From a virus, in the IMG/VR virus record IMGVR_UViG_3300035698_003511, positions 1-25,092 of that record: 25,092 nt of DNA. One strand, given 5' to 3'. Below the pieces are notes generated by a model that was given only the letters and a program-made list of their open reading frames with translations, had not been told where the DNA came from and made no database searches. Both the position numbers and the translations under genes were made by a program. Positions within the stretch are counted from its first letter, which is position 1, and every line of letters begins with the position of its first letter. Shown in pieces: positions 6,573 to 20,806 of the stretch.

Positions 6573-7595
6573 TTATATTTTAATTTCAGTAACTGTAACA
6601 CTAGCTGCTAATAAATCACCGAAAGTAGATCCACGTAACGATCCTATAACAACCGAAGTCGTTCCAGATACTCCGACTCGGATCTTAAACGTGATTAAAT
6701 CGGTTGTCCCAGCTACCATAAAATGTCTCAAATGTACCATATGAGAAGAAGATGATGAACCACCTCCTATAGATGTATCCTGTTGACTCTCAAGTCCCAC
6801 GGCAATAGCTTCATCTGAGCCGGTAGGATTTTTATACAGAGCCGCGACAGCAGGAGCGCCATTCCCAACTGCTGTTGTCATCGGGATATCAACGTCGATC
6901 TGTAATAGATTAGTCGCAGCTTTCGAAAGTATATTAACTTCTAACTCAGGGTACTCAGCACCCTCGTCCCATAACGGGGGAGTATTGTCAAAAACAAACC
7001 CCGTAGAAACAGCTATGGATTTTTCCCCCAGATCAGACGCGTATTTAATCTGCTCAATGACTTTAGTAGAGGTATCCGATGAAATATTAACAACGCTTTG
7101 TTCAATAATATTGCTGGAACTATCCGTTGCGAATTTACCTATTAACTTAAATCTAGTGAACCCTGTGGGAGCTGTCTCGCTTTCAGAGATAGAGAAAGTA
7201 ACAGTGTTGGCCGTAGCGTCGGCGCAAGCATAAACATAATATGTTGTACTTGCTGTCCTTGACCCAGTATCTATATTTGCAAACGTAATGTCAGTTGCCG
7301 TGGTATTTTTCCTTAATACTCTTTGAGAACCTGCTGCGTTGACACAAGAAACCTTACCACTTGATGCCGATATAGTATCATCATCGCTCCACGATAACTT
7401 TATGCTACAATAAGTGTCTATAATAAATCCCAAGACATCGATTGAATCTGCTTGCGTTAATCCTGACCCTAGCATACCAAGCCAAGTAGCTAACGCCTCG
7501 ATCTCATCGTTAGGTACGTTCTGATCTTCAGCCTCGACGAAATCAACGTTATCTTCTAACGTAGGAAAACTCGGTGCTGACCCAGGAATATTCAT
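6573..7595 (-). CDS. Candidate receptor-binding or tail-tip protein
   Basis: The protein has 340 residues and is rich in Ser, Thr and Gly with alternating hydrophobic residues, as in beta-structured tail appendages. An N-terminal acidic region (to about residue 60) is followed by a strand-rich domain (TTYYVYACADATANTVTFSIS). A Gly-Ser spacer (SIGGGSSSSSH) precedes a C-terminal domain (VHLRHFMVAGTTDLITFKI) resembling the head domain of trimeric fibres. It is encoded directly after the Tal-like gene, where receptor-binding proteins usually lie. Which host structure it binds cannot be told. Confidence 0.55.
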   Translation of the reverse strand: MNIPGSAPSFPTLEDNVDFVEAEDQNVPNDEIEALATWLGMLGSGLTQADSIDVLGFIIDTYCSIKLSWSDDDTISASSGKVSCVNAAGSQRVLRKNTTATDITFANIDTGSRTASTTYYVYACADATANTVTFSISESETAPTGFTRFKLIGKFATDSSSNIIEQSVVNISSDTSTKVIEQIKYASDLGEKSIAVSTGFVFDNTPPLWDEGAEYPELEVNILSKAATNLLQIDVDIPMTTAVGNGAPAVAALYKNPTGSDEAIAVGLESQQDTSIGGGSSSSSHMVHLRHFMVAGTTDLITFKIRVGVSGTTSVVIGSLRGSTFGDLLAASVTVTEIKI

Positions 7596-8702: not shown

Positions 8703-9468
8703 AAAACCAGTCCCTTGACGCGATACTATAACTTAACGTCGCCGCGTTGACAATAACGCTCTGGTTGCCGCCATCCGGTATCTCAAGAAACAAATTACCA
8801 CCAAAATGCGACAGTGCGTCTATAAAAGTTATTCCTGTTTGTAGTTGTACACTTCCAAGATCGCAGTCAATAGTGAGTGTCTGACCATTAAGCATAGGCC
8901 CTGTAAAATTAAAATAATGAGAATTAGCTGGTACATTTACTCGCAAATCGTTAGTAAAACTCGCACCACTGACGAAAGTGAAAACCGGCCGTGTCGGTCT
9001 GGATCCGTTATTCACTAAAGTCTCTACTGTTACGCCGTTATTGAGCGATCCGACAACTGTTCGCAACGTCGTGCTTTCCGCGTATGGATTGTTAGCCACA
9101 AGTACCATATCGACATCGTATACATATTCATATAACCCTTTTTGGAACTTCGCGTTGATCCCTTCTTTGGAAATACGTGCGTCAATAAACCGATCGTCAC
9201 GATATTTAAATTGTGCCGAATCTCCGTTATTACGGACAGCACGTATCATAGTATTTAAGTCGTTATGCAAACTGTCTTTATCGGTACTGAACAGTTTACC
9301 ATTAATCTTGATTTTGCGTGGCTTTTCATAAGCGTCTAGCGATACACCACCGCTCTGCCTACGTATATCTATCGATGGCGTGTCGAACGGTTGTTGATGT
9401 CCAACAATTTCAAACGTACGATTACTGAAAAAATATGTACCAAAAGCCAAAGTGAAATTTGACGGCAT
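8695..9468 (-). CDS. Distal tail protein (Dit)
   Basis: This 257-residue protein is encoded immediately after the tape measure (TAATG, 1-base overlap), the standard place of Dit. The N-terminal region (TFEIVGHQQPFDTPSIDI...KIKINGKLF) and the middle (FQKGLYEYVYDVDMVLVANNPY) look like the belt domain of Dit proteins: beta-rich, with the NPY turn before a galectin-like C-terminal domain (SRPTRPVFTFV... to LEIPDGGN). Dit forms a hexameric ring joining the tail tube to the tip proteins. Confidence 0.7.
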   Translation of the reverse strand: MPSNFTLAFGTYFFSNRTFEIVGHQQPFDTPSIDIRRQSGGVSLDAYEKPRKIKINGKLFSTDKDSLHNDLNTMIRAVRNNGDSAQFKYRDDRFIDARISKEGINAKFQKGLYEYVYDVDMVLVANNPYAESTTLRTVVGSLNNGVTVETLVNNGSRPTRPVFTFVSGASFTNDLRVNVPANSHYFNFTGPMLNGQTLTIDCDLGSVQLQTGITFIDALSHFGGNLFLEIPDGGNQSVIVNAATLSYSIASRDWFYV

Positions 9469-11720
9469 TACGCTCCCCTCCTACGTCGATCTATTTCTGT
9501 TGATAGCATCTCAGCCATTTCTTGCGGATCATCGACGTTACCATTTACTGTTATATTAATACTACCTCCTCCAAAATCAGAAGTTAAGTCTTTAATCATA
9601 GCATCGATACCACCGTCCTTTGATTCTGGACCACCTAAAGTTAAGTCTCCGGCCCTTATAGCCTCTGCAAAATCACGAGGTACAATCATTTCACCTGGCG
9701 TTAAGTTAGCCGGAACGCTGTCTGTGCCTTTAGAAAACCCCTGGGAAGCAATAGTTCCTATCTGAACGGCTCCTGCGGCCGCGGCAGTTGCCGCCATTGC
9801 GAGACCAACAGGAAAGAAAGGTTGAGTTGCTAGTCCACTGGTTACAGCCATAGCAGTATTAACGATAGCTTCTCCTAGCCGTATAGCCTTAATAACGTTA
9901 GCGAATTTTTGACTTTCTCCTTGCGCCACCGCGAACCCATCAGCGAGTGATCCTAACAGGCTGGCCGTCGTTCCAAGTGCGAGCTGAATACGTTGTTTGT
10001 CTATTTTTTGTTGTAAAGCAGCATGCGCTTTGGCCAGTTCTGCTTTTTTCTTAAAAAGTGCTTTTTCGGCTTCGCCTTTAACTTTATTTGCTTGAAGTAT
10101 AAAATCGACTTGATCCATCTCAAGTTTTAGTATGTCAGCTTTATGTTGTAACGCTTCTTCTTTACTGAGAGCTAACGCTTCAGCCATTATAGCGTCTATA
10201 GCTGCTTGGCCTTCAAGTATCACATTAGCTTTTTCCGTCCAGAACTCTGTTTCAGTTTGTAGTAGTGCAGCTTTCTTTTCCTCCTCAGACATAACTTCAG
10301 GAGAATCTGCACCACCTGTATCAAGATCCGATATCGCATCAACAGGTGCCTCATCTGCGCCACCACCAAGCCCTTTACCCAACCCTGCACCGACACCAAA
10401 TATCTTAGATACAATACTACTTGTATCTCCAGCACCTAGTCTGAATATAGCTTCTATCATCGTAGTAAAAGTGTCAGACACTCTACCTGTTTCTTTTTCA
10501 ACCTCTCGTAAAACATTTAACATTTTAGACAAGTCAGTTGCCGCAGCATTAATAGCAGGAGTAAAATTATCACCTATTTCGATAGTCAATGCTTGCCAGG
10601 AATTTGTTAATATTTTCAGACTAGATTCGGTAGTGTCAAATCTTTTGTTTGCTTCGTCTGTCAATGCTGTATTTATGAGAAACGCTTCATTTGACTTTTC
10701 GATTGAATCTGTTAATAATCCTCCAGCACCACCTACAGATAAAAAAGCTTGAACCAATCTTTGATCAGAAAGCCCTAGTTTATCTAATATTTTCACACCC
10801 TTCAAACCTGCCTTACCCAGTCCTTCAATAAACAATGCAAAGGCTTTTCCGGCGTCTTCTTCAAATACTTTTTTAAATTCAGCCGCAGTTAATCCAGAGA
10901 TATAAGCGAACTCTTTGAGGCTGTCACCTCCGTTTGTTACCGCGTCAGCCATCATTATAAGTGCTTTACTGACAGCCGTTCCTCCTCTCTCAGCCTTCAC
11001 CCCTACCGCTGTGAAAGCTGCTCCAAAACCAAACAAATCAGCCGAAGATAAACCTACCACTTTCCCAGCACCGGCTATCCTTTGAGCAAAACCAAGTATT
11101 TCATCTTCAGTAGTGGCAGTTGAATTACCTAAGTCAACAACAGCCGAAGCCATATTCTCTATATTTTCTAGCGGTTCTTGTATAACGTTCGCTATTCTAG
11201 CAAAACCTGTAGCCGCTGCTTCTTTTGTTAAATTAGTTGTTACTGCGATTTTGGCAACTGACTCGGTGAATTTAGTGAGGTTTTTGACGCCACGCACACC
11301 TAATTGACCAGCTATCTCTTGAATTTGAGCCAAATCCTTAGCCGCGATAGGGATTCTTGTGGATAATTCGATTAACCCGGAACTTAACTGTTTAAATTCA
11401 GCTTCAGTAGCATCTACTGTTTTCTTAACTCCAGCAAACGCGCTTTCAAATTCTATGGCTGGTGTGATCAAAGCTTCTATAGCTTGTTTCATTACACGGA
11501 AAGCTTGACTGGCTATGAAAACTCCACCAGCTACAGCTAACCATGTAGCTTTCATTTGTTGCCCTACTGATTTGGATTTTTTGTTTGTGTCGTCTAGGTT
11601 CTTTTTTGATTTCTTAGCGAATTGATCTATACTTTTATTTGCCTTATTCAGTCCGGTTTTAAGGCCTTTAATGTCTGCGCTTATTTTGACAAGAAGATTT
11701 CCGAGATTACCTGTTGCCAT
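9468..11720 (-). CDS. Tail tape-measure protein
   Basis: The protein has 750 residues, the longest tail protein here. It begins with the familiar tape-measure start (NLLVKISADIKGLKTGLNKANKSIDQF) and has long Ala/Lys/Glu-rich helices. The tape-measure core region lies at about 110-330 (ARIANVIQEPLENIENMASA). A hydrophobic helix-rich segment at about 640-680 could insert in the host membrane during DNA entry. A Gly/Asp/Glu-rich linker near residues 430-470 separates two helical parts. At the usual 1.5 angstrom per residue it predicts a tail of roughly 110 nm. GAGGTGG precedes ATG 11720. Confidence 0.9.
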   Translation of the reverse strand: MATGNLGNLLVKISADIKGLKTGLNKANKSIDQFAKKSKKNLDDTNKKSKSVGQQMKATWLAVAGGVFIASQAFRVMKQAIEALITPAIEFESAFAGVKKTVDATEAEFKQLSSGLIELSTRIPIAAKDLAQIQEIAGQLGVRGVKNLTKFTESVAKIAVTTNLTKEAAATGFARIANVIQEPLENIENMASAVVDLGNSTATTEDEILGFAQRIAGAGKVVGLSSADLFGFGAAFTAVGVKAERGGTAVSKALIMMADAVTNGGDSLKEFAYISGLTAAEFKKVFEEDAGKAFALFIEGLGKAGLKGVKILDKLGLSDQRLVQAFLSVGGAGGLLTDSIEKSNEAFLINTALTDEANKRFDTTESSLKILTNSWQALTIEIGDNFTPAINAAATDLSKMLNVLREVEKETGRVSDTFTTMIEAIFRLGAGDTSSIVSKIFGVGAGLGKGLGGGADEAPVDAISDLDTGGADSPEVMSEEEKKAALLQTETEFWTEKANVILEGQAAIDAIMAEALALSKEEALQHKADILKLEMDQVDFILQANKVKGEAEKALFKKKAELAKAHAALQQKIDKQRIQLALGTTASLLGSLADGFAVAQGESQKFANVIKAIRLGEAIVNTAMAVTSGLATQPFFPVGLAMAATAAAAGAVQIGTIASQGFSKGTDSVPANLTPGEMIVPRDFAEAIRAGDLTLGGPESKDGGIDAMIKDLTSDFGGGSINITVNGNVDDPQEMAEMLSTEIDRRRRGA

Positions 11721-12311
11721 TATCCACCTCTAATATTCCTGAAGCTTTCAACTTGTCAATTTCTGTCATGTCGAGTTGTTTGTTTTTGCCTACCCGATCA
11801 AGTTTACCGTTAGCCGCTACCCAAACAAGTCCAGCTTGTAGTTTAGTATATTCAAGTCTTTCTTTATACAGACTTTCAGCAACTAAAGAAAGTTGTTCAA
11901 CTGTAAAAGTTTCCATCACTTTAAGCGGAGACCATGAATAAGCGATAGCCACTTTCTTTATTACGTCGGGTAGAGTTATTCTTTCACTGTTAGAACTTCT
12001 CTGAATCTCTCTACCCCTTTCAACAAAGGGAGCAATTCTCGCTTGTATAGTATTCCGAACGCTTCAGCTATTTCCTTTAAATCTGAATCAGTGTCTAGCT
12101 GTTCAACGCTCACTCCAAGCATGAAACTGATAACTTTCATCATGAAGGGTACAGATGTTTTTAAACTCTGGTCAGGTTGCTCACCCAACTCCCCCCACAT
12201 CTCTATCAGATCCAGTTTTTTCGTTATTGGTAGCTTGGTGACAATCATTTCTTTGCCACACAGCGTTACCTTAACCGGTTCTCCACGCATTACTTCTAAT
12301 TCGTCACTCAT
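11707..12311 (-). CDS. Tail assembly chaperone, frameshifted long form (gpGT-like)
   Basis: A -1 shift at 12024-12030 would join the first 96 codons of the upstream ORF to the downstream frame, giving a 201-residue protein. The -1 frame is open from the slip site through the gap (VERGREIQRSSNSERITLPDVIKK) and into AIAYSWSPLKVMETFTVEQLSL, which looks like the T-domain of lambda-type GT proteins. The only alternative start, GTG 11952, has no proper ribosome site. In lambda and most siphoviruses the short and long forms coat the tape measure during tail assembly. The position just before the tape measure fits. Confidence 0.75.
11976..12311 (-). CDS. Tail assembly chaperone, short form (gpG-like)
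   Basis: The protein has 111 residues. It is acidic and helical in the middle, with MIVTKLPITKKLDLIEMWGEL near the N-terminus, as in gpG-type chaperones that follow the tail tube gene. AACAAAGGAG precedes ATG 12311. This is the product of normal translation; a minority of ribosomes probably shift frame near codon 95 to make the long form. Family sequence conservation is low, so the call rests on gene order and the frameshift. Confidence 0.72.
   Translation of the reverse strand: MSDELEVMRGEPVKVTLCGKEMIVTKLPITKKLDLIEMWGELGEQPDQSLKTSVPFMMKVISFMLGVSVEQLDTDSDLKEIAEAFGILYKRELLPLLKGVERFREVLTVKE
12024..12030 (-). promoter_or_regulatory. Probable -1 ribosomal frameshift heptamer C CCT TTG
   Basis: Read in the frame of the upstream ORF, the codons are CCT TTG preceded by C. 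The site therefore has the X XXY YYZ form, and re-pairing on CCC TTT keeps most base pairs. It lies 48 bases before the zero-frame stop, in the overlap of the two chaperone frames. I did not test for a downstream pseudoknot. Confidence 0.65.
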
Positions 12312-12327
12312 CGCCTGTTCTCCTTTG

Positions 12328-12876
12328 TTATACTACTGTCTGTGCCATTTTAAAAAGCGTCTTGCCGTTAGTTAACGCTGCACCGGCCCAATCTTCAGCC
12401 ACATCAAGCGCGTTGAACTTATATGGAAATTCGTGTAGATCGTCAGGATTAATCGCGACAGCGATCGTTCCGTCACCAGTAGCTTTCCAGATATCAAGTG
12501 TTATCGTGCTACCATCAGCAGCAATATGCTGAAATCTTAACGCGACTTCTGTGTTGTTTGGCCGACCACCAAACTCAAGTATTCTGTCCGGGCTGCTAAC
12601 ACTTGTCTGTCCGTCACCAAGAACTCTTGACAAATTGTCAAGATTCCATTGGATCCCGGTTAGCTCGAGCATAACATCTTCCTGTGACGCAAACGCCTTG
12701 ATCGCGTTCTGAGGGCTGCCCTGTCTGATTAACACGTTATTCCTTTCAACTGTCAACGTCGCCGCGCCACGAACATACCCTACATCGATCGTGGGTGTAG
12801 CATCTGCCGGTCCGATCAGTAAAACACCTGGGCCGATCGACACTTCATTAATTGATCCTGAAGGTTTATTTCTCAT
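12328..12876 (-). CDS. Major tail tube protein
   Basis: This 182-residue protein is encoded just before the tail assembly chaperone. The sequence is typical of tail tube subunits: GPGVLLIGPADATPTIDVGYVRGAATLTVERN at the start, a central ALRFQHIAADGSTITLDIWKA, then TIAVAINPDDLHEFPYKFNALD near the end. Strands alternate with Gly/Asp turns, as expected for the tube beta-sandwich. ACAAAGGAG precedes ATG 12876, agreeing with a strongly made protein. Confidence 0.85.
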   Translation of the reverse strand: MRNKPSGSINEVSIGPGVLLIGPADATPTIDVGYVRGAATLTVERNNVLIRQGSPQNAIKAFASQEDVMLELTGIQWNLDNLSRVLGDGQTSVSSPDRILEFGGRPNNTEVALRFQHIAADGSTITLDIWKATGDGTIAVAINPDDLHEFPYKFNALDVAEDWAGAALTNGKTLFKMAQTVV

Positions 12877-13166
12877 TTCGTTTTCTCCTTTGTAAAGTTT
12901 TTCTTAGGTACCCATTCTCTATATATAACACTCACAACATCATGCGGAGATTTCATCTTGGCCACACGGTCTGCATGCAGTTTCGCATACTCTTCAGTGC
13001 AGATAAAATTCCTCGTTCCGCATGCTGGACATATCAATCTAAGTATACCACCCTCAAACGTAATATACAAATCTCGATGTTTGATTGATAAAGATTTGTC
13101 ATGGCTTTCTGTAGCCAAAAAATAATCACACCCTTCTTTCCCACAACATAACTTTTTTTTAATCAT
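12873..13166 (-). CDS. Zinc-ribbon protein of the tail module
   Basis: The protein has 97 residues. Cysteines 7, 8 and 13 (CCGKEGC) and the knuckle CPAC (46-49) are spaced like a zinc ribbon, and another Cys at 56 may take part. The tail is basic and lysine-rich. It overlaps the terminator gene and the tube gene by 4 bases each, so it is translated with them. Similar small proteins occasionally lie between neck and tube genes in siphoviruses, without a known role. It may be a minor assembly factor. Confidence 0.6.
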   Translation of the reverse strand: MIKKKLCCGKEGCDYFLATESHDKSLSIKHRDLYITFEGGILRLICPACGTRNFICTEEYAKLHADRVAKMKSPHDVVSVIYREWVPKKNFTKEKTK

Positions 13167-13618
13167 TGTAATGTCCCCCTGGCTCTAAACCGTCCCAAAT
13201 ATCTCATTATTTTAGTATCCTGCTCATACATCTGAGGCCCTCTATAAAAATTCTCTAACATCAGCATATTAATGCCTACAGTATTGTCCCATCCACCGTT
13301 ATTATGTAACTCGTTTTTAGCGGCCGCGAAACACTCCATTACGTTGTCCCAGGTATAGGATCCTTCAGTTATCCCTGTCTGAAACCATAAATCAAGCTGA
13401 ATATCTATAGTTTCCAGCCCGGCATCGTCTATCGCCTGACCGTCAGACGAAAGTAACTGTATAGTTACGGCCGGCAACGCATAATTCTGTATCGTAGATA
13501 ACTCTCCGACGTAGATACGTGCCGAGTCACCTGACCCGACGTATTTCGTGACGTCAGTAATAGTTTTTAGTTTCTTGATTATTAACTGTACGACTTTACC
13601 TTCAAATGAATTAGTCAT
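13163..13618 (-). CDS. Tail terminator-like protein
   Basis: The protein has 151 residues and sits between the gp10-like neck protein and the tube gene, the place of tail terminators (lambda gpU, SPP1 gp17). The sequence shows an N-terminal helix (VVQLIIKKLKTI), a PAVTIQLLSSDGQ strand and IDIQLDLWFQ, followed by a helix (NVMECFAAAKNELH) and a final strand region. This agrees with the alpha/beta fold of the family, which caps the tail tube and joins it to the head. Assignment rests partly on gene order. Confidence 0.6.
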   Translation of the reverse strand: MTNSFEGKVVQLIIKKLKTITDVTKYVGSGDSARIYVGELSTIQNYALPAVTIQLLSSDGQAIDDAGLETIDIQLDLWFQTGITEGSYTWDNVMECFAAAKNELHNNGGWDNTVGINMLMLENFYRGPQMYEQDTKIMRYLGRFRARGTLQ

Positions 13619-14118
13619 AATTTCACCCTTTTACCTTGATAAGTTATAGTGAACCGTTTCAACGTACGTCGTAACGTCGTTAGTATTTTATCACCAACTT
13701 CGTCCAACGATCCACGCAAGAAATCACGACTCACCATTTTACTCGTTCCAAACACCACATATTTCGCATGCTCAACACTATCGTCTATCCCAGCATAAGC
13801 TTCAGCTTCAAGTGTGCCTGAATTGATTTTAGCTTTTTTTGTTCCAGACTTTAATCCAGACAGCATCTCCCCTGACTGTTTATGGACAGTATAATCAGGT
13901 TTATGTATCGACTTCGGATTACTCCTAGAATACGGATGTCCCATCTTAGCCAGATCTTTCAACGTATATTGTGTGTTTGATATATTCTCTCTGATCTTAC
14001 CTTTAAGGATCAACTCCGCTTTCTGCATGTCGATATCAACGTTTTTGAGAAAATTATCTCCATACATGACAAAATTCTTAGCTAAAGTTTTTGCACCTAT
14101 GATAGTTTTTTCTGTCAT
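13615..14118 (-). CDS. HK97 gp10-like neck/tail completion protein
   Basis: The protein has 167 residues. The pattern of N-terminal helices (LILKGKIRENI), a His/Tyr-rich middle (GHPYSRSNPKSIHKPDYTVHKQSGEM), then EHAKYVVFGTSKMVSRDFLRGSLDEVGDKILTTL matches the HK97 gp10 family, in which a conserved Y-v-fGT segment and a final helix are characteristic. These proteins complete the tail or neck at the head-tail junction. The stop overlaps the next start by 4 bases. Confidence 0.75.
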   Translation of the reverse strand: MTEKTIIGAKTLAKNFVMYGDNFLKNVDIDMQKAELILKGKIRENISNTQYTLKDLAKMGHPYSRSNPKSIHKPDYTVHKQSGEMLSGLKSGTKKAKINSGTLEAEAYAGIDDSVEHAKYVVFGTSKMVSRDFLRGSLDEVGDKILTTLRRTLKRFTITYQGKRVKL

Positions 14119-14119
14119 G

Positions 14120-16519
14120 TTACCCTGTCTTTGACGCTTTGAGTTGGTGTTGATTTAATACATCGATCAAATTATCTAACGCTGGTGATCTGTATATCGG
14201 ATCAAGATTCTTTGACGCGTCGTTCAAATAAGCTTTTCCCATATTAAGATAATAATACGCTAACTGCATCCTGGCCCGCCAAAAATCAGGTTTAAGCTGT
14301 ATCGCTTTACCTAAACATTCCAAAGCTTCTCGTTCCATATCGTCATTCATATAGTGCGACGACATGTTGAACAACGGCCGAGGATCCTGATTGCCAGACA
14401 CCCTGAACTGTTCCTGATTGATTGCATGATACCGATCGCCTTTCTCGCGAACCTTTTCTTTAGTTTTCAGATAACCTCTATGATGTATCGGTATCGGAGC
14501 CACTACCGCACGTTTAAATCCGCGCCGCTGCCTAGCTGCGACAGCATCTTCTAACGATTCATGTATCAAACCAGTATAATACAGTTCCGGAATATTTCTA
14601 TATAACCGGATAGTCTCACTAATACAATATTCATTTTCTTCCGGTATAAGACTTTTCGGAGGCACCATATAATTAATAACCTTAAACAATACCGCTTCGA
14701 CATCTTCGTCTATAATCGCGAATAACGAACAAACCTCGTTTGGATTGAACTGTTCGTCACAGTCCATATTGAGGATCCATTCAGTAGTACACTGGCTTTT
14801 ACCGAAATTTTTAGCTTCTGAATAGTTATACAGTCGGCCGTTGTGCATACTATCAAACGTTTTCTGTATTAACTTGACTGGTTTTTGATAGATTGCTTTG
14901 AACCGTTCAATAGCTTCAAGCGTTCCGTCAGTCGAACCGGTATCCACAATCACATATTCGTCAGCCACACATGCGACGTTTTCAAGCATACGATATATAT
15001 TGTCGACCTCGTTACAGCATACCGTCATAACCGTGAGCCTGTTTTTTTCGGTATATGGTTTTAACCCAACATTTTTATCAATCAAATGATGATAATCTTT
15101 ATTACCAACGTCACCCACAACCGGCCGAGGATCAGCGTTTTTATAAAAAGCATGTTTTTTCTTTCTCTGCTCGGGAGTATCGTATCCTAAATGTTTAACG
15201 CGAACATTTAACCACCCTAAATTTTCGACTGGTATATGCGGTGCAGATCCGCAATGGTGATTATATATGTTTGAGTTTTCATAGATTTGCAACCCCGGAA
15301 TAACTTTAAAGAACCGATAGTTCTGGAACCCACCAAAGATACCATCGAACCGATACATTTCTTTACCTTCTTCGTGATCCCATATCGTACGCCAGTTACA
15401 CCAGTAACCTGTGATCTCGGGATTGCTCGGTGACATATACGTCTTAACATTTTCGACAAATTTATCTTCATATACCTCATCTCCATCAATCGATATTATC
15501 CAATCAGCACCTCGAGTTATAGCCTCCTGCAACAACCAGTTACGTTCAGCCTGTTCGTTGAATGGATGTTCCGGTTCGTTCCACACCTCAACAACTTTTA
15601 CCTTATCGAAACTTCGTGCGATTTCTTCTGTCCGATCAGAAGATCTGGCCACTAAACATATTATCTCGTCAGCGAACCGGCTGGTTTGTTTCATCGAAGC
15701 TTCAAGATAGTCTTCACAATTTGCTATCCTATACACAGCGATAAGTTTCTGATCTTCTTTGGCTTTCCATTTATCATAATAAAGTTTCTGGTTGTCGATA
15801 CCGTTCTGGATATATTTTTCAATAAAATCTTTATTCCATACTTTTTGAAACGAAGCCTGGCCACGATGATAGATGAACGTTGAGAAGTCGATCCATAATT
15901 TCCAGCCCTTACGTGTCGCGCGTAAGGATAGATCGTTATCCTCATAAGAATTTATAAACCTTTCATCAAATAAATATTCTTCATCTTTCAAAAACTCACG
16001 GTTAACCATTAAACACCAACCGTAGAGTATCCCAGCTTCTTCAAAACGTTCATGGTTCTTGTTCGCCCATTCGTTCGCGAACACTTCCGAGTCTTGACCT
16101 ATATACACCCCACCTACACATTGTCGTCCGTTCGATGAGTTGGACACCGGTCCCACTATAGCAGCGGATTTCGTATCCATTACGTATGCCATGCTATCGG
16201 CCCAGCCAGGAGTTACTACTGTGTCTGAGTTAAGGAGTATAAGTTTCTCTCCCTCTGCATATCTAATCCCCTGGTTATTTGCCGGGCCGAAGTTGAAATT
16301 GGTATAGTTAAAATGTATCTTGACATTATCGTGCATATCAGATAAATCCTGAATATATCCATTAGATCCATCTTTAGAACCGTTATCTACTATGATTATT
16401 TCAAAATCTTTAGTATGCCTGAATATCGACTGTACGCATAGGGCCAACTCAGCCAGGGTATTGTAACTCACAATCACGATCGAATACTTTAAATCTAGTT
16501 TTTTCTTTTTCAAGTCCAC
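14120..16519 (-). CDS. Three-domain GT2-type glycosyltransferase with C-terminal TPR-like region
   Basis: The protein has 799 residues. Domain 1 (about 12-250): YSIVIVSYN, VDNGSKDGS, LNSDT (DxD equivalent, 96-100) and EDND at 193-196. Domain 2 (about 258-450): DGDE at 345-348. Domain 3 (about 495-685): MTVCCNE, VDTGSTDGT at 525-533 and DCDE at 586-589. Residues 715-775 look like one or two TPR repeats (EALECLGKAIQLKPDFWRARMQLAYYYL). Domain 3 plus TPR resembles SunS-type transferases, which glycosylate proteins. The start is GTG 16519 after AGGAGG. The gene is set between the head-closure and gp10-like genes. The acceptor is unknown; a virion protein or a surface glycan are the main options. 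Confidence 0.88.
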   Translation of the reverse strand: MDLKKKKLDLKYSIVIVSYNTLAELALCVQSIFRHTKDFEIIIVDNGSKDGSNGYIQDLSDMHDNVKIHFNYTNFNFGPANNQGIRYAEGEKLILLNSDTVVTPGWADSMAYVMDTKSAAIVGPVSNSSNGRQCVGGVYIGQDSEVFANEWANKNHERFEEAGILYGWCLMVNREFLKDEEYLFDERFINSYEDNDLSLRATRKGWKLWIDFSTFIYHRGQASFQKVWNKDFIEKYIQNGIDNQKLYYDKWKAKEDQKLIAVYRIANCEDYLEASMKQTSRFADEIICLVARSSDRTEEIARSFDKVKVVEVWNEPEHPFNEQAERNWLLQEAITRGADWIISIDGDEVYEDKFVENVKTYMSPSNPEITGYWCNWRTIWDHEEGKEMYRFDGIFGGFQNYRFFKVIPGLQIYENSNIYNHHCGSAPHIPVENLGWLNVRVKHLGYDTPEQRKKKHAFYKNADPRPVVGDVGNKDYHHLIDKNVGLKPYTEKNRLTVMTVCCNEVDNIYRMLENVACVADEYVIVDTGSTDGTLEAIERFKAIYQKPVKLIQKTFDSMHNGRLYNYSEAKNFGKSQCTTEWILNMDCDEQFNPNEVCSLFAIIDEDVEAVLFKVINYMVPPKSLIPEENEYCISETIRLYRNIPELYYTGLIHESLEDAVAARQRRGFKRAVVAPIPIHHRGYLKTKEKVREKGDRYHAINQEQFRVSGNQDPRPLFNMSSHYMNDDMEREALECLGKAIQLKPDFWRARMQLAYYYLNMGKAYLNDASKNLDPIYRSPALDNLIDVLNQHQLKASKTG

Positions 16520-16531
16520 TGTCGCCTCCTT

Positions 16532-16900
16532 TTAAGCACCTTTCTCCACTAAACACTCTATATGATGTGTCAATCCATTAAAATCAATTATCTGTTTCAC
16601 GTTCTTTATTAAGCCAAGAGTTAACCCGTTAATGCCGTACATCGGGGATAATATGTCACCCGGCTGTATATTCGTGCCGTATTCAGCCATGAACGTATAT
16701 CTAGCGTTCGCAAAGTCACCAGGTAGGTTACGGATCTGTTGTCCGCTGAGTTCATAAAAATACACGCTGACAGAGTCACCTACGATAGATTCTCCACTCG
16801 GCCGCAAGTCTCCCATAGCGGTACGCGTAAAGCCACTGCGTCGTTTTATCGCGATAACTCCTTTCAATATCAACGCAAATTCTTTATCATGCTGGCTCAT
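16532..16900 (-). CDS. Head-closure-like neck protein
   Basis: The protein has 122 residues and is beta-rich, with FMAEYGTNIQPGDILSP and the ending NGLTHHIECLVEKG, a pattern found in SPP1 gp16-type head-closure (stopper) proteins. Gene order supports this: connector, stopper, gp10-like, terminator, tube, if the modification genes are ignored. It lies alone between the GT4 gene and the triple GT2 gene, so the modification genes flank an essential neck gene. AAGGAG precedes ATG 16900. Confidence 0.55.
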   Translation of the reverse strand: MSQHDKEFALILKGVIAIKRRSGFTRTAMGDLRPSGESIVGDSVSVYFYELSGQQIRNLPGDFANARYTFMAEYGTNIQPGDILSPMYGINGLTLGLIKNVKQIIDFNGLTHHIECLVEKGA

Positions 16901-16902
16901 AA

Positions 16903-17907
16903 CTACTCCTTGACGTATTGATTGTAAACCTCTGTATAAAACTCTTGATATTTATCACTCATTTCTTGTTCCATAAATTCATCAGAAGCGTATTCCCTCC
17001 CTTCTTCGGAATAAGCTTCTCGGCAGTCCAGATTGTCAAATAGGAACTGCACACCTTTGACCAATCCAGAAACGTTCGGTTCAGTCAAAACGGCCTGTCC
17101 TAGTAACAACTCTTGAGTTAAATTGTTTTCATACGTAACCACCGGAACACCACACGCCATCGCCTCGATAAAAACAAGACCAAACCCTTCTGTCGGAGAT
17201 GGATATAAAAATATATCCATAGCTTTGTAGTAGTTTCCTACTTCTTCCACGTTACCAACAAAATGAACGTTGTCAAGTGGTAACGACGCAACCATGACCT
17301 TGATGTTCCCGAGATATCCGGAATCAGTTGACACTTCATCGCCCACAATCAATATGTGGCACTCAGGCTGTTTATCTTGTATGATTTTACATGCAACAAT
17401 AAATTCTTCTACACATTTATCCATACCTAATCGACCAAGTCTACCTATTACCATAGCCTCGGACGGTATCCCTAAGTCTTTACGTACGTCACAACACGTA
17501 GTCTCTAAACGATCAATATCAATACCGTTATATATCGTGCGGCATTTTCTATTAAGTTTCGTTACAACGTTACTAACGCCAACCCTAGCGCAAACATAAG
17601 AATCTCTTATGGCGGAAACAACTGGAGAATGTATAGTTTCAACTGTCGGGATCTGGTTCTTAACCTTAGACGCGAGATGGCTTTCATCTCCACCCGTATG
17701 CACATGAACAATATCACAATTAATGTTTTCGGTATCCTCACTTTCCAGGACAACCCTTGCTCCGGCTTTTTCTAGAATATTGCGCATAGGACCATCTTTG
17801 TAGGTATAAACAACATGTTCATTAACCTTATCGTGTTTTATTATCCCGGACACAACACGTTCGGCTCCACCCATTTCCAACTGATTCAGTTCGTGTAAGA
17901 TCTTCAT
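16903..17907 (-). CDS. GT4-family glycosyltransferase
   Basis: The protein has 334 residues, GT-B fold. The N-terminal lobe has the MGGAERVV loop (12-19), and IYNGID (125-130) marks the lobe junction. The C-terminal lobe has VIGRLGRLGMDK, the strand LIVGD and the motif PSPTEGFGLVFIEAMACGVPVV (236-257) with the EX7E pair Glu240/Glu248 that binds the sugar nucleotide. Retaining GT4 enzymes transfer sugars in polysaccharide or glycan synthesis. It follows the methyltransferase by 18 bases and probably works on the same product. Confidence 0.9.
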   Translation of the reverse strand: MKILHELNQLEMGGAERVVSGIIKHDKVNEHVVYTYKDGPMRNILEKAGARVVLESEDTENINCDIVHVHTGGDESHLASKVKNQIPTVETIHSPVVSAIRDSYVCARVGVSNVVTKLNRKCRTIYNGIDIDRLETTCCDVRKDLGIPSEAMVIGRLGRLGMDKCVEEFIVACKIIQDKQPECHILIVGDEVSTDSGYLGNIKVMVASLPLDNVHFVGNVEEVGNYYKAMDIFLYPSPTEGFGLVFIEAMACGVPVVTYENNLTQELLLGQAVLTEPNVSGLVKGVQFLFDNLDCREAYSEEGREYASDEFMEQEMSDKYQEFYTEVYNQYVKE

Positions 17908-17925
17908 TCATCGCCCCCTTCGCCA

Positions 17926-18510
17926 TTATTTTTTTATTAACGCCCCAAAACCGGCATTACCATGTACCGGTAAATCAAATTTTTCATAACCTTCAGGATT
18001 AAATGTTGACCAAAATGCTTTCATCTTTTCGTTCAAGTATACATCATCAAAGAAAATTAGTCCTCCTGAAACTACATCTTTTTCATAAAGATCAAACTCA
18101 CCTTGACATCTTTTACCGTCATGTAGTGTGTCAATGAATAGAACTTCTATCGCTCCCACGTCTACCTTATTAAGACTATCGCTTGCTATGAATTGCAATC
18201 CAGGCACTTTATGGCAAACATCAAGTATGCGCTCGAAGGTATGATCTACCGACACAACACTGCCACCTTCATTATTATTTGCCAACGCATAAGCTGAAAT
18301 GCCGGTATAACTACCTAATTCAAGCACCTTAACCGGCTGCAAATAATCAATCAAACAGTTAAAGAATCTATAGTAATGCGCCGGGATTCCTGGTGATCTG
18401 AGATGTTCGTTTTCTTCTGATATCAACAAACCTTCTAATTCAGAGTTATCGATTTTAACTTGTGACGCATACGATAAATTAAGTAAAAACTCTTGTGTTG
18501 TCAGTTTCAT
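17926..18510 (-). CDS. Class I SAM-dependent methyltransferase (O-methyltransferase-like)
   Basis: The protein has 194 residues. Motif I is VLELGSYTG (62-70), the acidic end of strand 2 is VDHT (88-91), strand 4 is VLFIDTLHDG (123-132), and GGLIFFDDVYL (149-159) follows. The IDxxH and FDD patterns are those of Methyltransf_24/O-methyltransferase families that modify sugars or small molecules. The start overlaps the radical SAM stop by 4 bases, so the two are translated together. A sugar or glycan methylation step is likely from context, but the substrate is not shown. Confidence 0.85.
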   Translation of the reverse strand: MKLTTQEFLLNLSYASQVKIDNSELEGLLISEENEHLRSPGIPAHYYRFFNCLIDYLQPVKVLELGSYTGISAYALANNNEGGSVVSVDHTFERILDVCHKVPGLQFIASDSLNKVDVGAIEVLFIDTLHDGKRCQGEFDLYEKDVVSGGLIFFDDVYLNEKMKAFWSTFNPEGYEKFDLPVHGNAGFGALIKK

Positions 18511-19433
18511 GTCATCCTCTCATAGTTTGTTGAAGTTGAATTCACTCTATCTTTTATTTCATATTTAGAACTATAAAGTAAAACATCTGATTTATCTGCA
18601 TTTCTTTGATCACAATGCTCACAAATAAGTCCAGAATTATCAAAGTTACCACTATCGTGACACGCTTTTATCTTATGGAAATCTGCTGTATTAAATATTT
18701 CTGTTAAATCTTGATTTTTTAAGTCTCCGAACAGAAGTTTACCATCCCAATCAAAACAACAAGCATTCACCGTTCCATCTACCTGTATCTGAAGCGGCCC
18801 GTTATTTAATCGGCCGCAAGTCTTAACCTTTTCTTCTTGTTCTTTTCTATATGTGAAGGCGTTAACCCAATCATGCGCCAACCATACTTCTAATAAATCA
18901 GGTCTCGCGTCCCATAAATCTAACCATTTCTGTACCGGCTCGCGATTAACTCCTTCAGCCATAACACACGTCAATAAGAGTTGAGTGCTTTTTTTAATGT
19001 CAAGAATTTCATTAATATTTTTACGCACTTTATCGAAATTATTCACACCATGTAATTTACGATATCCTTCTTTAGTCGCGCCATGAAAACTGATCCGTAA
19101 AGAAAAAAGTCCAGAGTCTTGCAATCTTTTAAAATAAGCACCGTCAATATACTCTCCGTTAGATACAAGTAAAGACTTTAATCCTTTTTTTGTGCATATC
19201 TTAATCATTTCAACTAGGCCACCATTCAGCGTAGGTTCGCCTATACCGGCAAAAGCTACCGTATCATATTGATTACTATCAGTAAGGACTTTGTCCAGCA
19301 GAAACTCAAAGTAATCGATCCTCATGGTATACTGTGTGCGTGTTAACTCGTTCTTCTTACATATCACACAGTTATACTGGCATTTGTTGATTATTTCAAA
19401 TCTAATCTCCTTTGATTTTGGTATCATATTCAT
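18507..19433 (-). CDS. Radical SAM protein with SPASM-type C-terminal domain
   Basis: The protein has 308 residues. Cys18, Cys22 and Cys25 form the CxxxCxxC motif for the SAM-bound iron-sulfur cluster, followed by GIGEP (63-67, the GGEP equivalent) and the usual barrel strands. Cys206, Cys225/226, Cys258, Cys271 and Cys274 form a SPASM/twitch-type region with the hallmark VDGTVNACC and GDL. Such enzymes modify peptides or proteins or carry out sugar chemistry, as in many polysaccharide clusters. GGAGG precedes ATG 19433, which overlaps the previous gene by 32 bases. The base composition of this stretch looks AT-richer than the tail genes. Confidence 0.9.
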   Translation of the reverse strand: MNMIPKSKEIRFEIINKCQYNCVICKKNELTRTQYTMRIDYFEFLLDKVLTDSNQYDTVAFAGIGEPTLNGGLVEMIKICTKKGLKSLLVSNGEYIDGAYFKRLQDSGLFSLRISFHGATKEGYRKLHGVNNFDKVRKNINEILDIKKSTQLLLTCVMAEGVNREPVQKWLDLWDARPDLLEVWLAHDWVNAFTYRKEQEEKVKTCGRLNNGPLQIQVDGTVNACCFDWDGKLLFGDLKNQDLTEIFNTADFHKIKACHDSGNFDNSGLICEHCDQRNADKSDVLLYSSKYEIKDRVNSTSTNYERMT

Positions 19434-20100
19434 GCCCCTCCATTCTGAAATTTATAAAAGGATTTATTGCATATATGTTACAACCATAAATCTCTTTCAG
19501 TTTCGCCTTTAACCTCTCACTATCACTGTTAACCCTATCAAACCATGTATTATAATATGGCACGAAATTATCCTTTTGATAATCTTCTATATGTTTAGCG
19601 TAATTTTTGAGGTGACTCTTCTTGTCTATCCACCCACAATCATGACCACAAATCATGATGTTTTTAGCTCCCATATACGCGGCCAAGTGTAGACAACTGG
19701 TTATTGTGGAATAACTGACAAAGATATCATCATCCTTGCCAACCGCGGCAAGGATATCCTTGAAGTTGAGTTCTGTATCCTCAAATTGACCTTTCTTGTG
19801 CGTAAAAATATAATCTATTCTAGGATTTTCGTTTATGGGATGACCTATATCTCCACAGTCGTGTAACGAGGCCACAACAGTTGATCGGTTCGCGTCAGCG
19901 CATTTATCTATAAATTGTTGATGTTTAAAAACTGAATAATGTACTGGAAAATGTTCCCATACGTTATTAGCACCTATTGTTATCTTTTTTATGAAAAATA
20001 ACGGATCAATATACTCCATGCTTGGACCAGCACCTAACACGTATATATCTTTATCTTTGTGGATATCTTTTAAATATGTGATGGGGATGCGTTTATTCAT
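19402..20100 (-). CDS. MptE/Maf (DUF115)-like or GT42-like protein
   Basis: The protein has 232 residues. VLGAGPSME (21-29) is the nucleotide-binding loop shared by DUF115/MptE-like proteins, flagellin glycosyltransferases of the Maf family and GT42 sialyltransferases. TIGANNVW and, later, STITSCLHLAAYMGAKNIMICGHDCGW match the second half of this fold, where a Ser/Thr-Ser segment precedes a helix and the GxD strand. These enzymes use CMP- or nucleotide-linked nonulosonic acids, or make a pterin diphosphate. In a glycosyltransferase cassette, a sugar transferase is more likely. A weak ribosome site precedes ATG 20100. Confidence 0.7.
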   Translation of the reverse strand: MNKRIPITYLKDIHKDKDIYVLGAGPSMEYIDPLFFIKKITIGANNVWEHFPVHYSVFKHQQFIDKCADANRSTVVASLHDCGDIGHPINENPRIDYIFTHKKGQFEDTELNFKDILAAVGKDDDIFVSYSTITSCLHLAAYMGAKNIMICGHDCGWIDKKSHLKNYAKHIEDYQKDNFVPYYNTWFDRVNSDSERLKAKLKEIYGCNIYAINPFINFRMEGHEYDTKIKGD

Positions 20101-20117: not shown

Positions 20118-20507
20118 TTAACTATCTCTTAAATCTTCTCTTAATATAAACTGCTGTTCGCCTGGGCTTTCAAACGGTCGCGCTACTGAACCGAATGTTT
20201 GTTCCATTGTCTCGTCCCACGGAATCACTCCGCGTTCAAACCATGCTGCCGCATTTTCTCTTAACTGTTTGGCAATTTTCGTTGTATCCTCTGAATAGTT
20301 TCCGGCTTTCTTGATTTTGGCAAGTCTCGCCGCGTCGTTAGCTTCGATAAGTAACGCTTTACCTGTCGCCTGATTAACATCGTCATCAGACGAGGTCAAT
20401 AAGGCTTGGATCTCTTCATCAGTGAATACAGCGTTAGTAGAACTCGTATCCCCTATGTTAAGCCTGACTTTTCCTATATCTGTCCCTAAAGAATATGTGA
20501 ATGTCAT
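20118..20507 (-). CDS. Head-tail connector (gp6-like adaptor)
   Basis: The protein has 129 residues. The N-terminal IGKVRLNIGDTSSTNAVFTDEEIQALL is the signature of phage head-tail connector proteins: a short helix, the RxxIGDT turn, then (f)tDeeI. Helices follow (GKALLIEANDAARLAKIK), as in HK97 gp6. These proteins bind below the portal. The start overlaps the truncated methyltransferase by 4 bases; the stop is 17 bases before the modification cassette. Confidence 0.8.
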   Translation of the reverse strand: MTFTYSLGTDIGKVRLNIGDTSSTNAVFTDEEIQALLTSSDDDVNQATGKALLIEANDAARLAKIKKAGNYSEDTTKIAKQLRENAAAWFERGVIPWDETMEQTFGSVARPFESPGEQQFILREDLRDS

Positions 20508-20806
20508 TTGATTGCTACTCCTATCATATCGTCACAAACATCGCGACAATGTTCAAAGAAATTACCTGATATTATAATATCGAAATGCTCATCCGGGAAT
20601 GGATATTCGTAAGGTTTATCAAGAACGATATCAACACCTTTCCCGGGGAGAAGATCAATGCCGATATACTCAGATGCGTCTTTAAATAACCCTTTGAAAG
20701 TTCCGTTAATGTCTTGACTTCCCACATCTAACACTTTAGCACCAACAACTCTTTCTTTGTACTTTATTGCAAAATTCCTCATTAGTGTCATTGCGCTTTC
20801 GTGCAT
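20504..20806 (-). pseudogene. Truncated class I methyltransferase
   Basis: The protein has only 100 residues. VLDVGSQDINGT (25-36) is motif I, YIGIDLLPGKGVDIV follows, and FDIIISGNFFEHCRD is motif IV and the FEH helix of a class I SAM methyltransferase, family about 200 residues. The chain then stops abruptly (DDMIGVAIK), so the second half of the Rossmann fold and the substrate part are missing. The connector starts right at the stop with a 4-base overlap. It is probably a remnant of a once full-length modification gene, though a working short protein cannot be ruled out. Confidence 0.65.

Follow-up and report, generated by a model that had tools for sequence, protein, structure and literature searches.

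What do enzymes of the kind that build and decorate glycans do among the genes that join the head of a phage to its tail, and do they serve the particle, the host surface or neither? The window analyzed here, an IMG/VR record taken in full (25,092 bases), raises this question through five enzyme genes lying in one tight run (MptE/GT42-like, radical SAM, O-methyltransferase, GT4 and triple GT2), which is bounded by gp10-like and Neck1 genes and holds a head-closure-like gene between GT4 and GT2. The minus-strand order is protease, decoration, MCP, truncated methyltransferase, gp10-like, MptE-like, radical SAM, Methyltransf_24, GT4, head-closure-like, triple GT2, Neck1, tail completion, tube-like and tape measure, with all genes of the locus open on that strand (Table 1). 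The tube-like gene is labeled by position. Most of the locus genes have a purine-rich stretch just upstream of the start codon, and the gaps between genes, starting at the gp10-like gene and ending at the next tail gene, measure +17, -32, -4, +18, +2, +12, +1 and -4 nt. Since these gaps span only -32 to +18 nt, co-expression of the enzyme genes with the neck genes is probable. A sequence-only reading had placed five modification genes within the neck genes, with the head-closure gene inside the cassette; the gene identities, with Pfam support for each enzyme, and the setting among the neck genes both hold. Absent from that reading was a sixth, shortened methyltransferase gene upstream of the gp10-like gene, possibly what is left of an older tailoring gene that occupied the slot between MCP and gp10. 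Promoter and terminator scans gave no signal above shuffles, and neither tRNA nor Rfam RNA was found. A diversity-generating retroelement beside the Mtd-like gene was considered and rejected, as 7 records held no repeat pair and no reverse transcriptase, and no integrase was found in a 95-kb relative.

Table 1. Genes of the head-tail locus in the window, in their minus-strand order
Feature	Coordinates	Strand	Match or basis
Truncated SAM methyltransferase, 100 aa	20504-20806	-	phrog_32762 (5e-16, positions 6-88 of 180); Methyltransf_11 weak
gp10-like head-tail gene, left edge of locus	20118-20507	-	phrog_1732 (unknown function); orthologue comes after MCP in relatives
MptE/GT42-like enzyme, exchangeable tailoring gene	19402-20100	-	PF01973
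Radical SAM enzyme with auxiliary-cluster domain, BtrN-like, exchangeable tailoring gene	18507-19433	-	PF04055 + PF13186
Methyltransf_24 O-methyltransferase-like, exchangeable tailoring gene	17926-18510	-	PF13578; O-methyltransferase structures matched
GT4 glycosyltransferase, core clade gene	16903-17907	-	PF00534 (6.6e-27)
Head-closure/adaptor-like protein	16532-16900	-	Orthologue matches; none convincing for the window protein
Three GT2 domains + TPR-like tail, core clade gene	14120-16519	-	PF00535, three stretches
Neck1/tail completion protein, right edge of locus	13615-14118	-	phrog_5 (5.6e-6); same place in relatives

IMG/VR scans seeded by radical SAM, MptE, MCP, GT2 and GT4 all converged on one clade; with the MCP, an alignment scan gave 80 loci and a single-sequence scan none. 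Once near-identical contigs, which are fragments, had been merged, the clade comprised 16 lineages, namely the window and 15 related IMG/VR lineages (L003, L009, L010, L014, L019, L022, L023, L025/L104, L033/L105, L099, L102, L103, L107, L109 and L112). GT4 is present in all 16, and the order GT4 - head closure - GT2 is kept in 14 of the 14 whose contig spans the block, the two left out being L003, which ends inside the head-closure gene, and L019, which ends inside GT4. The arrangement is not chance, because this block recurs in 14 lineages. Neck1 is the next gene after GT2 wherever the sequence continues. Within the block, MptE and radical SAM genes separate head closure from GT2 in two lineages (L010, L099), and small ORFs are interposed in L103, L104 and L107. 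The comparison of related genomes at the same site thus recovered the block, and the case that would have told against the sequence-only reading, relatives lacking any cassette, was not encountered in the clade, no member being without GT4 and GT2 where its contig reaches the site. Outside the clade, a profile scan found cassette-like genes in 0 of 44 more distant MCP relatives, the subset of 72 having at least 4 kb downstream of the MCP.

The core glycosyltransferases are kept with the care given to a structural gene. GT2 is as conserved as the MCP (mean identity 53% vs 48%), the acidic DXD-like motifs of its three domains are retained in all full-length members and the EX7E motif of GT4 in all 16 lineages, each with small variations, as is also true of the methyltransferase and radical SAM motifs. 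In a co-inheritance test that draws on few lineages, GT4, GT2 and head closure diverge in step with MCP, protease, gp10 and Neck1, as judged from pairwise identities (Mantel r 0.65-0.88, P <= 0.0006; r 0.56-0.87 without the closest pair, L102/L112).

The remaining genes behave differently. The slot between gp10 and GT4 holds MptE, radical SAM and Methyltransf_24 (MT24) in the window, L003, L009 and L014, MT11 and MT24 in L023 and L025, two methyltransferases in L022, a methyltransferase with a sugar 4,6-dehydratase in L019, and a polysaccharide pyruvyl transferase either alone (L033) or with methyltransferases (L102), while L107 carries a different radical SAM/SPASM gene and an MptE-like/methyltransferase fusion between MCP and gp10. 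Among six phages, GT4 tracks the MCP (r 0.76, P 0.02), as do gp10, protease and decoration, whereas radical SAM (-0.16), MptE (0.30) and MT24 (0.03) do not. In a radical SAM tree with several weak forks, the gene of an unrelated phage (L004), which lies directly after a terminase-like ORF, nests inside the group of the clade. These divergence patterns and slot contents show that the GT4 and GT2 pair is inherited with the virion genes and that the tailoring genes (MptE, radical SAM and methyltransferase) are swapped between phages. The cassette as a single unit, as first described, was therefore not borne out; GT4 and GT2 form a core to which the other three are exchangeable additions.

The nature of the triple GT2 protein may indicate what the core does. 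Its third domain and tail are closest in profile matches to GmaR (2.3e-27) and to SunS (2.8e-18), which carries out the S-glycosylation of a peptide; the likeness lies in the soluble GT2 fold. The tail matches TPR structures by profile, and Pfam TPR_11 reaches 17.6 bits, below the cut-off of 26.8. In GmaR of Listeria, the glycosyltransferase domain adds GlcNAc to flagellin and a TPR domain follows (PMC9638930). Unlike in GmaR and SunS, the domain here is fused behind two more GT2 domains, and the sequence ends soon after the TPR-like part, leaving no room for the long antirepressor domain of GmaR. The first GT2 domain resembles polysaccharide-type enzymes (chondroitin synthase, TagF). The GT2 part gave a partial GtrB-like profile match only, and the locus lacks the membrane-anchored GtrB and flippase GtrA that mark Gtr-type seroconversion cassettes; none of the cassette enzymes of the window has a strong membrane segment (highest 19-residue hydropathy 1.60). 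In isolated phages, GT2 matches were partial only.

The MptE-like protein matches PF01973 at 37.2 bits (cut-off 34.6), and its predicted model, of modest confidence (pLDDT 63), is equally near MptE 8sd5 (rmsd 4.2 over 143 residues) and CstI 2p2v (4.4 over 162), with Z 9.1 to both. Five MptE-like sequences share H153, H163 and further histidines without change, and the catalytic histidine of GT42 may lie among them, in a region that is partly of low confidence in the model. The likeness to MptE, to the GT42 sialyltransferases CstI and CstII and to Maf is thus one of family and fold, from which the reaction does not follow. The protein had no meaningful PDB sequence match and no match in isolated phages. 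As for its structural neighbors, three of eight orthologues of the head-closure-like protein match the head-tail adaptor family phrog_615, at 4.8e-5 in the best case, and for one there is a match to head closure Hc1 (0.015), the window protein itself being without a convincing match; in its poor model (pLDDT 49) neck proteins reach only Z 3.6-4.6, among unrelated folds. The name gp10-like was given by position only, and "head closure" and "gp10" are partly positional names.

The radical SAM enzyme, with PF04055 and PF13186 (Radical_SAM and SPASM) above cut-off, is closest in profile to BtrN, an enzyme of aminoglycoside biosynthesis that acts on sugars (1.7e-18), the radical SAM core and the small auxiliary-cluster domain both aligning; further matches are to tetraether lipid synthase, MoaA, DesII and BlsE. 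The CX3CX2C motif (C18, C22 and C25 in window numbering) and C206, C225, C226, C271 and C274 are invariant in 8 sequences. A full SPASM domain has seven cysteines and two auxiliary clusters; the five conserved C-terminal cysteines found here would fit one auxiliary cluster, like the twitch domain of BtrN. The relationship to BtrN is distant and the genetic setting here is one of glycosylation, as against aminoglycoside synthesis. Isolated phages gave one distant match, in Phage C48C1 (26%).

Taken together, we consider it fairly probable (about 0.6) that the locus encodes a cytoplasmic assembly line, built into the head-tail operon, that makes a variable glycan on a virion protein. The soluble three-domain GT2 would join a sugar to a virion protein through Ser/Thr (or Cys), its GmaR/SunS-like third domain and TPR-like tail acting as the part that links to protein. 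Chain extension from host nucleotide sugars would fall to GT4 and the two remaining GT2 domains, after which the MptE/GT42-like, BtrN-like radical SAM and O-methyltransferase proteins would alter or cap sugars of the chain. Swapped tailoring genes may in this way give each lineage a different outer sugar. The order of reactions, the tailoring chemistry and the acceptor are what we infer from the genes. A virion protein is the most likely acceptor, given that the enzyme of the linking type is soluble and shares its inheritance with virion genes. Of the two targets first proposed, a virion protein or a host glycan, the former is now better supported, by the GmaR/SunS-like domain and the lack of strong membrane segments; nothing points to the decoration protein in particular, which had been offered as an example, and no Ser/Thr-rich tail stood out as a candidate acceptor among the structural proteins. 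What counts against an assembly line of this kind, besides the lack of such a tail, is the polysaccharide-type first GT2 domain, the polysaccharide-type loci in which cellular relatives of the radical SAM enzyme lie, and the fact that no gene for nucleotide-sugar synthesis was seen in the window.

By the main rival reading, a glycan of the host surface is the target and is remodeled late in infection, for receptor masking, progeny release or rival exclusion, and the site of the enzymes in the virion operon sets only the late timing. Genes for a pyruvyl transferase, a 4,6-dehydratase or an MptE-like protein are of the sort usually seen in surface polysaccharide loci, and the radical SAM relatives in Omnitrophota adjoin polysaccharide deacetylase, GT4 and sulfotransferase genes. 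In pelagimyophages, too, a variable island with glycosyltransferases, and in some of them a radical SAM gene, adjoins a neck gene and is interpreted as modifying the O-chain (PMC7029224); those phages are myoviruses and their host recognition cluster is an island of about 45 kb with tail fibers, whereas the locus here is short and has a fixed glycosyltransferase pair. Against such remodeling, the locus contains no flippase or membrane-anchored glycosyltransferase, the GmaR/SunS-like domain is of the linking type, and GT4 and GT2 are co-inherited with virion genes, so that we regard it as rather unlikely.

An insertion hotspot, gathering transferable cargo that has no specific role in the virion, is more doubtful still. 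It would account for tailoring genes that differ by lineage, change slots and do not track the virion genes, for their lower GC in the window (0.354-0.366 for the three, vs 0.40-0.43 for GT4, head closure and GT2) and for the truncated methyltransferase; yet no lineage that could be checked is without GT4 and GT2, whose motifs are intact and which evolve along with the virion genes, and the variable genes all belong to one functional kind, the alternatives (pyruvyl transferase, 4,6-dehydratase, methyltransferases) being sugar-type or methyl-transfer enzymes throughout. Although glycosylation of DNA is a known activity of phage glycosyltransferases (cited in PMC12619734), modification of the phage DNA is very improbable here, given the protein-glycosyltransferase-like domain, the position among neck genes and the lack of any base-modification gene among the window proteins scanned, which represent only part of the genome.

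Glycosylation of a virion protein has its closest known counterpart in the mycobacteriophages Che8 and Rita, whose capsid and tail tube subunits are reported to carry glycans (Freeman et al. 2023, cited in PMC11256854 and PMC12619734) and which likewise have phage-encoded glycosyltransferases. Maravista, which is related to Che8, has its glycosyltransferase genes near the 3' end of the genome and not among neck genes, and the passages drawn on here mention no radical SAM, MptE-like or pyruvyl transferase gene, unlike the present loci. Judged from the open-access literature, what appears to be new is a glycosyltransferase pair fixed among the neck genes and accompanied by tailoring genes that are exchanged. 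Phage glycosyltransferases are usually classed as movable auxiliary genes, whereas two of them here act as virion genes across 16 lineages, so that programmed, lineage-specific glycans on phage particles become a question testable by expressing a few genes. More tentatively, at somewhat less than even odds, a glycan on the virion may be a regular component of the particle throughout this uncultured phage lineage, made by core linking and chain-building enzymes of the neck operon, with interchangeable tailoring enzymes, including a radical SAM enzyme acting on sugars, lending every lineage a distinct surface sugar in the manner of bacterial O-antigen loci.

Omnitrophota genomes were examined as those of possible hosts. 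The MCP was found in 0 of 285 of these genomes and MptE in 0 of 270, in a set without a positive control, and relatives of the radical SAM gene occur in 9 of 270, standing close to the group of the clade in the tree, where several forks are weak. A link of the phages to Omnitrophota is only a lead, and the locus is a place to look for what the BtrN-like radical SAM enzymes shared by phages and Omnitrophota act on.

The radical SAM gene of the cassette also occurs on a high-GC contig of an unrelated phage (L004:839-1783), immediately after a terminase-like ORF, and in the radical SAM tree this sequence is nested within the group formed by the window's clade, i.e., the phage lineages sharing the GT4, head-closure and GT2 block. 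The family is further present, at 47% identity, in Omnitrophota MAGs (L015:9995-10933 and L016:5684-6613), whose loci also carry genes for polysaccharide deacetylase, GT4, B12-radical SAM or sulfotransferase. These bacterial genes may represent the source of the phage gene or a link to the host.

The family matched by the Mtd-like product of the window corresponds to the second domain of Mtd, the major tropism determinant of BPP-1, and the product is likely a receptor-binding protein. A search for a diversity-generating retroelement accompanying this gene found none.

Feature coordinates in the window
Feature	Position	Strand	Remark
Mtd-like protein	6573-7595	-	PF21916, 1.3e-8
Truncated SAM methyltransferase	20504-20806	-	Between MCP and gp10-like gene

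Among 14 lineages compared, the head-closure protein bears an extra N-terminal domain in 11 (e.g., L010:8122-8760 and L014:7567-8394), and the short form is found in the window, L009 and L099.

The slot occupied by the truncated methyltransferase contains other inserts in L025, L107 and L006. The L025 interval (9653-14132) codes for three proteins with signal-peptide-like N-termini, one of which (668 aa) weakly matches DUF5123. In L006, a distant relative without the cassette, a GIY-YIG/NUMOD3 homing endonuclease (9262-9891) immediately follows the gp10-like gene.
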